Shown: positions 2,534 to 2,604 of the stretch, in pieces
Layout: each line of letters starts with the position of its first letter
Position numbering within the stretch: the stretch's first letter is position 1
DNA from: Hyphomonadaceae bacterium
GTDB taxonomy: Bacteria; Pseudomonadota; Alphaproteobacteria; Caulobacterales; Aquidulcibacteraceae
DNA: 34,581 bases
Assembly: GCA_023384105.1 (NCBI GenBank)
Contig: JAHDXR010000008.1
Coordinates: 1-34,581, forward strand
Direction: 5' to 3'
Made by a program: the position numbers and the translations under genes
Notes under the pieces: generated by a model
What the model saw: only the letters and a program-made list of their open reading frames with translations
Database searches by the model: none
Told to the model about the DNA's origin: nothing

Positions 2534-2542
2534 ATGGTTAAC
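2534..2542 (+). promoter_or_regulatory. CtrA-like half-site upstream of ccrM
   Basis: ATGGTTAA at 2534-2541 is the reverse complement of TTAACCAT, the half-site known for the cell-cycle regulator CtrA, and it extends to the palindrome GTTAAC (2537-2542). TTAA is rare in this GC-rich DNA. In Caulobacter, ccrM is activated by CtrA late in the cell cycle, so the position 64 bp before the ccrM start fits. The full two-half-site form is not seen, so this is a candidate only. Confidence 0.5.
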
Positions 2543-2548
2543 GGTTTT

Positions 2549-2585
2549 CGGACTCTTGATTCGCGAGTCCGGTCAAGGGAGAATC
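2549..2585 (+). promoter_or_regulatory. Cluster of four GANTC methylation sites in the ccrM leader
   Basis: GACTC (2551-2555), GATTC (2558-2562), GAGTC (2565-2569) and GAATC (2581-2585) occur within 35 bases. The first three start exactly 7 bases apart. The outer two of these form the arms of a 7-bp inverted repeat (CGGACTC 2549-2555 with GAGTCCG 2565-2571), with the third in the loop. All are targets of the enzyme encoded just downstream, so methylation feedback on ccrM expression is a reasonable inference, as known for Caulobacter ccrM. Confidence 0.7.
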
Positions 2586-2601
2586 CCCCGCTTCCGGGGG
2601 A
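2584..2601 (+). promoter_or_regulatory. Hairpin abutting the ccrM start codon
   Basis: TCCCCC (2584-2589) and GGGGGA (2596-2601) pair perfectly around a 6-base loop and end 3 bases before the ATG at 2605. A better-looking ribosome site (AAGGGAG, 2575-2581) lies on the far side of the hairpin. The hairpin could hide the G-rich near site or bring the distant site close to the start codon. Seen directly; role inferred. Confidence 0.45.
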
Positions 2602-2604
2602 CCC

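Follow-up and report, generated by a model that had tools for sequence, protein, structure and literature searches.

A putative σ70-type core promoter with CcrM sites at conserved positions upstream of ccrM in a genus of Hyphomonadaceae

The ccrM locus and its motif cluster

The window, the whole 34,581-nt stretch of DNA that was analysed, is the first part of contig 11 in a 3.67-Mb genome; records of the same genus carry the label Hyphomonadaceae. It contains ccrM, which encodes a GANTC-type adenine methylase of 362 aa with matches to Pfam N6_N4_Mtase (7e-65) and, in its tail, RAMA (4.4e-18). The protein is 68% identical to that of the Caulobacter vibrioides locus L043, and is the single ccrM match in its own genome in a search at E 0.001. 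On the 5′ side of ccrM are a 260-aa gene without a Pfam match and rnhB, the latter adjoined by an IS1595-family transposase gene (49–1020, minus strand; Pfam DDE_Tnp_IS1595, 4e-31). Directly 3′ of ccrM there is an inverted repeat of 31 nt (3727–3864), the arms of which are 94% complementary and 76 nt apart. It has the ends TATGGACCGCC and resembles a small repeat or MITE-like element. A Crp-type regulator with a cNMP-binding domain (4456–5145) is encoded downstream of ccrM.

The elements of the 71 bp preceding ccrM are itemized below, together with the gene itself. Fractions give the occurrence in ccrM leaders of the same genus, and the promoter hexamers are predictions.

2534–2542, strand not given: CtrA-like half-site ATGGTTAAC, read from the sequence (exact in 24/27)
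2551–2555, plus strand: GANTC site 1, GACTC, abutting the predicted −35 (22/27, always GACTC)
2556–2561, plus strand: predicted −35, TTGATT, by analogy with the TTGAC of other alphaproteobacterial ccrM promoters (TTGATTC in 27/27)
2558–2562, plus strand: GANTC site 2, GATTC, inside the predicted −35 (27/27)
2565–2569, plus strand: GANTC site 3, GAGTC, in the predicted spacer (21/27)
2572–2577, plus strand: GTCAAG, no role assigned (each base kept in 21 to 26 of 26)
2579–2584, plus strand: predicted −10, GAGAAT, 17 bp from the −35, from the comparison of leaders
2581–2585, plus strand: GANTC site 4, GAATC, overlapping the predicted −10 (25/27)
2584–2601, plus strand: C-tract/G-tract hairpin with arms TCCCCCG (2584–2590) and CGGGGGA (2595–2601)
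2596–2600, plus strand: candidate Shine–Dalgarno sequence GGGGG (the G-run before the ATG is kept in the genus)
2605–3693, plus strand: ccrM

Four GANTC sites are thus located within 35 bp on the 5′ side of ccrM. The features to which a sequence-only reading of this DNA had drawn attention are present: the variants GACTC, GATTC, GAGTC and GAATC occur once each, the first three sites start 7 bp apart, and two of the sites lie within the arms of a palindrome, these inverted arms being perfect (CGGACTC, 2549–2555, and GAGTCCG, 2565–2571). The CtrA-like motif that it had placed in the leader is found as a half-site; ATGGTTAAC is the reverse complement of the CtrA half-site TTAACCAT, plus C. The full motif TTAA-N7-TTAA is absent, TTAA at 2538–2541 being followed after 7 bases by CGGA. 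On the minus strand GTCAAG (2572–2577) reads CTTGAC, and no −10 for a minus-strand promoter was found by eye.

The clustering of GANTC at ccrM is beyond chance. The whole window holds 42 sites, compared with 143.7 expected from shuffles, and of 20,000 random placements of 42 sites, 0.02% put at least four within 35 bp. The 80-bp segment 2525–2604 reached four sites in 27 of 20,000 dinucleotide shuffles. The arrangement GANTC-N2-GANTC occurs eight times in the whole genome, compared with seven for a reversed-pattern control; two of the eight make up the ccrM triplet, the only overlapping pair in the genome.

Conservation of the leader within the genus

From 30 genomes of the genus, including that of the window, 27 usable ccrM leaders were obtained, near-identical ones being retained. 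These were anchored on TTGATTC and their columns compared without a tree; L024 was excluded from the column profile and from the hairpin test, so that n is 26 for both. Columns from −6 to +29 carry 1.34 bits of information on average, and those from −75 to −36 carry 0.20. Such a difference indicates strong selection, and bears out the proposed control region of ccrM, compact and containing both CtrA-like and CcrM sites.

TTGATTC is found in all of the leaders, and the base that follows it is G in 21/27. The third base of the GANTC sequence is invariant at sites 1 and 2. Relative to TTGATTC, site 3 starts at +9 in 12 leaders and at +10 in 9, with G (12), C (5) or T (4) as its third base, while site 4 starts at +25 in 18 and at +26 in 7 of the 25 leaders that have it, with A (15) or T (10). 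The variation of N at sites 3 and 4 fits the retention of a methylatable site. The CtrA half-site is located 21–23 bp before TTGATTC in 23 leaders, and the copy in L024 lies at a different distance. At the position of the predicted −10, T6 is kept in 25/27 leaders and A2 in 16/27. The pattern GANTCTTGATTC gave 28 matches in the 30 genomes, 24 of them at ccrM (22 genomes, two being counted twice) and 4 elsewhere; the control gave 6.

The spacing and palindrome described from the single sequence are conserved in part: the sites and their places relative to the promoter are kept, but the exact 7-bp step and the palindrome are not. The step of 7 bp to site 3 is found in 12/27 leaders, nine others having 8 bp, and the palindrome is kept in 11/27, site 3 being GACTC or GATTC in nine leaders. 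The phased palindrome was rejected as a unit, and so was the set of four variants as something meaningful, since each variant occurs once in just 8/27 leaders. Leaders L024, L030 and L114 have a sister layout, TTGATTC-N4-TTAACC, in which the CtrA-like half-site comes after TTGATTC, not upstream of it.

The arms of the start-adjacent hairpin are present as proposed. The suggested location between ribosome site and ATG is unsupported, because the conserved G-run is itself part of the hairpin's 3′ arm. A Shine–Dalgarno G-run pairs with CCUCC, and GGGGG (2596–2600) is likely to be this element; the candidate ribosome site AAGGGAG (2575–2581) is not conserved in the genus leaders and was rejected. 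By hiding the ribosome-binding G-run the hairpin might add a level of translational control, but this appears quite unlikely. A stem of −2.1 to −24.0 kcal/mol is predicted in 26/26 leaders, shuffling the 5′ arms weakens the pairing (0/300 shuffles as low as native), and L129 keeps both arms despite an insertion in the loop. However, swapping arms between species left the mean energy equal, with 2827/5000 permutations at or below the native value, as is expected of a C-tract beside a G-run. The fold of the 116-nt segment is just 1.6 sd below shuffles, and the best Rfam match (E 0.24) is below the gathering score. Both a known RNA family and a covarying hairpin in a structured RNA switch were discarded as candidates, no compensatory changes being found.

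ccrM leaders outside the genus

The wider comparison was based upon 250 ccrM loci, 230 placed by BLAST and 20 by fetch geometry. Removal of L014, where the contig begins inside the gene, and of 10 duplicates left 239 unique leaders. These comprise 27 from the genus, 21 from elsewhere in the family, 58 from the order, 60 from the class and 73 from named records, at least two of which (L040 and L079) belong to the family of the window. The order sample was 60 of the 95 order genomes outside the family. For the class, 60 of the 88 genomes that have ccrM and belong to other orders were taken, the best-ranked but one, and their leaders come from 60 different families.

The number of GANTC sites per 150 bp upstream exceeds that in shuffles in every group: 3.63 versus 0.75 in the genus, 2.48 versus 0.55 in the rest of the family, 1.78 versus 0.69 in the order, 2.70 versus 0.64 in the class and 1.96 versus 0.64 in the named records. 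At least one site is present in 27/27, 17/21, 51/58, 51/60 and 50/73 leaders, respectively.

Outside the genus, TTGAC occurs 127 times in 101/212 leaders, and GANTC starts at preferred offsets from it, at +19 in 46 instances and at +8, +9 and +10 in 25, 16 and 11. Other offsets are −15 (23), +2 (17) and −5 (14). Eight of ten control pentamers, all of which are rarer than TTGAC, peaked at 2–4; the outliers were TTCAG, with 12 at −2 where it overlaps the site, and CTTGA with 24, which is TTGAC shifted. We define a strict array as a pair of GANTC sites, one at +7 to +11 and the other at +18 to +20, and a broad array as either of these alone, measured from TTGAC or TTGAT. The strict array is found in 23/60 class, 14/73 named and 6/58 order leaders, and in none of 50 rounds of dinucleotide shuffling. 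The broad array is found in 40, 23 and 6 leaders of these groups, compared with shuffle means of 0.9, 0.9 and 0.8.

A hexamer with A2 and T6 is located exactly 17 bp after the −35 in 55/68 TTGAC arrays, against 0–4/68 at twenty background positions; one base later the same combination is found in 10/68. The last C of the second GANTC is the first base of this −10-like hexamer, and the C at +23 in the 68 arrays is partly preset by the choice of arrays having GANTC at +18 to +20. The hexamers and their spacing are strong evidence that the TTGAC arrays outside the genus would function as core promoters. The wider plan, which occurs at ccrM in many alphaproteobacterial families, reads TTGAC, GANTC at +8 to +10, GANTC at +19 and AnnnT.

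The broad array is absent from 142/212 non-genus leaders, and the nearest relatives of the genus mostly lack it (absent in 52/58 order and 20/21 other family leaders). The strict array is found in 0/27 genus leaders, which have no site at +19 and one at +25 or +26 instead. The genus promoter is connected to the wider plan by GACTCTTGA(T/C) and the spacer site, with +25/+26 replacing +19, and we draw the kinship between the two by analogy. Leaders L119–L122, L125 and L128, from other genera of the family, have a different ccrM array with several sites around GAATC-N5-TTAA(C), so that ccrM layouts vary within one family. The Rhizobiales leaders L076, L080 and L089 have CtrA-like motifs and no GANTC in the upstream stretch inspected. 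Outside the genus a CtrA half-site is negatively associated with the broad array (11/74 versus 59/138, Fisher p 3e-5 with kinship ignored), and the offsets of GANTC from CtrA-like motifs show modest peaks, such as, in the order leaders, six at +11 relative to TTAACC.

The layout is conserved, has fixed offsets and belongs largely to ccrM. A search of 123 class genomes, 90 of which have ccrM at E 1e-100, with the composite pattern TTGACN{2,4}GANTCN{5,6}GANTC gave 38 matches in 32 genomes, and the control gave 8; judged by eye from the coordinates, 19 of the 38, one in each of 19 genomes, directly precede ccrM on the same strand and 19 lie elsewhere. The single-site form TTGACN14GANTCANNNT gave 35 matches in 58 genomes (control 12), with 15 assigned to ccrM in the same way and 20 elsewhere. 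Some other promoters may share the layout.

The predicted promoter and how it may be read

We infer that the 71 bp form a core σ70-type promoter of ccrM with built-in CcrM sites, the transcription of which would be gated by methylation state; we place the probability of this at roughly 0.56. By analogy with the TTGAC arrays, TTGATT (2556–2561) is the predicted −35 and GAGAAT (2579–2584) the predicted −10, separated by a spacer of 17 bp, and transcription is predicted to start at about 2590–2592. CcrM sites would be positioned at the −35 (TTGATTC), beside it (GACTC), in the spacer (GAGTC) and at the −10 (GAATC), with the CtrA half-site upstream, and they are predicted to belong to the core promoter, not to the mRNA leader. 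CcrM would methylate its own promoter, and replication would return the sites to the hemimethylated state. The promoter would most likely be ON when hemimethylated with CtrA active, CtrA serving as the activator in this genus, and OFF when fully re-methylated, and such gating would restrict CcrM to a brief pulse. Full methylation would probably repress ccrM, this sign being favoured by the precedents of Caulobacter ccrM and Agrobacterium gcrA.

Several observations argue against the core-promoter reading. The predicted −10 is weak, matching at 4 of 6 positions and lacking A2 in 11/27 genus leaders; a consensus promoter scan of 2400–2800 detected no promoter, so that the assignment of −35 and −10 rests on comparison; and site 4 is shifted by 1 bp in 7/25 leaders. 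The earlier suggestion of a CcrM-sensitive DNA or RNA switch divides here. Control by self-methylation of the DNA is plausible, but an RNA switch is disfavoured by a stem without covariation, and also by the predicted start, which is 3′ of all four sites and does not count against a DNA switch.

A more specific form of the core-promoter reading is possible but rather doubtful. In this form TTGAC-N3-GANTC-N6-GANTCAnnnT would be a promoter dedicated to ccrM, a methylation thermostat read by σ70 polymerase and not by GcrA, to which the genus would have added a CtrA site. The genus version would consist of TTGATTC plus the site overlapping the −10, in a layout that is largely ccrM-only.

GcrA might instead be the reader, the sites recruiting GcrA with σ70 polymerase so that methylation would turn ccrM on, not off. 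We consider this somewhat unlikely. GcrA is encoded in the genome (PF07750, 1.0e-51), methylated promoters are bound by GcrA, which recruits RNA polymerase (excerpt of PMC3667746), and those Caulobacter starts that have GANTC in the −10/−35 interval become active at 40–60 min (excerpt of PMC4287350). TGATTCG (2557–2563) fits the extended Caulobacter GcrA motif TGATTCG/YGAKTCK (excerpt of PMC7987155), and a GANTC with YGAKTCK is found within the −35/−10 region here, the −35 and −10 themselves being predicted. In the same excerpt, however, Brevundimonas has no preference for an extended motif. Among class genomes, the broad array is found in 9/11 without GcrA over the Pfam cut-off versus 31/49 with it, and the strict array in 6/11 versus 17/49. 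The cut-off may miss divergent GcrA, G155 among the 11 having a match below it, and a repeat search at E 10 in these 11 genomes gave none over the cut-off. The layout therefore appears not to need a recognisable GcrA, suggesting a reading step perhaps more direct than a GcrA-only view would have it. It is also largely a feature of ccrM and not of a general regulon.

An unlikely alternative of another kind is a CtrA-type promoter with an earlier start, in which the half-site would lie over a weak −35, TTGATT would be the −10 and transcription would start near 2568. The leader would then contain site 4 and the hairpin, an arrangement like that of Caulobacter. The half-site is well conserved at 21–23 bp before TTGATTC, and in most promoters activated by CtrA a single site is located at −35 (excerpt of PMC11264516). 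With a start near 2591 the half-site falls at −57 to −49, and the expected −35 to −39 fits the earlier start alone. The hairpin, formable in 26/26 leaders, needs transcription through 2584–2601 and would be only partly transcribed from near 2591, which favours the earlier start; as its arms do not covary, we give it little, but not zero, weight against the predicted one. Spacing does not decide between the starts, the distance from half-site to TTGATTC varying by 2 bp and that of site 4 by 1 bp. Against the earlier start, GACTCTTGAT corresponds to the GACTCTTGAC found in other families, whose TTGAC precedes a −10-like hexamer at 17 bp. A coincidental clustering of GANTC with no function would agree with the genome-wide parity of GANTC-N2-GANTC and its control, but is most improbable. 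It is contradicted by the retention of the sites within the genus while N varies, by the fixed offsets outside the genus, and by the concentration of GANTCTTGATTC and composite-pattern matches at ccrM.

That ccrM has methylation sites and is controlled by CtrA is already known. Caulobacter ccrM is described as transcribed only from hemimethylated DNA (excerpt of the modelling paper PMC2217572), its direct control by methylation is held to be most probable (excerpt of PMC3973325), and its promoter holds two GANTC sites (excerpt of the review PMC10073500). Throughout the class, CcrM sites are predicted in the upstream regions of cell-cycle genes (excerpt of PMC2877005). In the literature searched, self-sensing by the solitary methylase is described mainly for Caulobacter, and no account of a core promoter with this fixed layout was found, though one may already be in print. 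The enzyme encoded by ccrM is probably able to mark and regulate its own gene, and the recurrence of a layout with GANTC at set positions relative to the −35 and −10 allows this self-sensing to be examined in many alphaproteobacteria, as well as in vitro.

Like the window, the Caulobacter promoter has a CtrA-like motif and GANTC sites near ccrM, and L043 has GACTCatGATTC, with the same 7-bp step as sites 1 and 2. L043 differs in having two close GANTC sites where the window has four, a longer upstream CtrA-like region, and no TTGAC at 17 bp. The Caulobacter ccrM sites reportedly lie in the transcribed leader, a finding attributed to Stephens in 1995. GcrA-activated methylated σ70 promoters (such as ctrA P1, mipZ and ftsN) also have GANTC in or near the −35/−10, and the TGATTCG of the window matches the cited extended motif; the window differs in that the methylase's own gene has four sites, of which one overlaps the predicted −35 and another the predicted −10. 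A single site is the usual number in such promoters. Among Caulobacter cell-cycle starts with GANTC, 11/96 had more than one within 50 bp (excerpt of PMC4287350).

The promoter of gcrA in Agrobacterium tumefaciens is likewise GANTC-dense and serves a cell-cycle gene. It has six GANTC sites and is repressed by CcrM methylation, even in Escherichia coli (excerpt of PMC11514494). It differs from the window in the gene concerned and, from the same excerpt, in that its sites are spread within a 250-bp region. In a synthetic memory circuit CcrM also methylates its own promoter region, but that system is engineered, with a methylation-sensitive zinc finger and with positive feedback via an artificial repressor (excerpt of PMC5458116).
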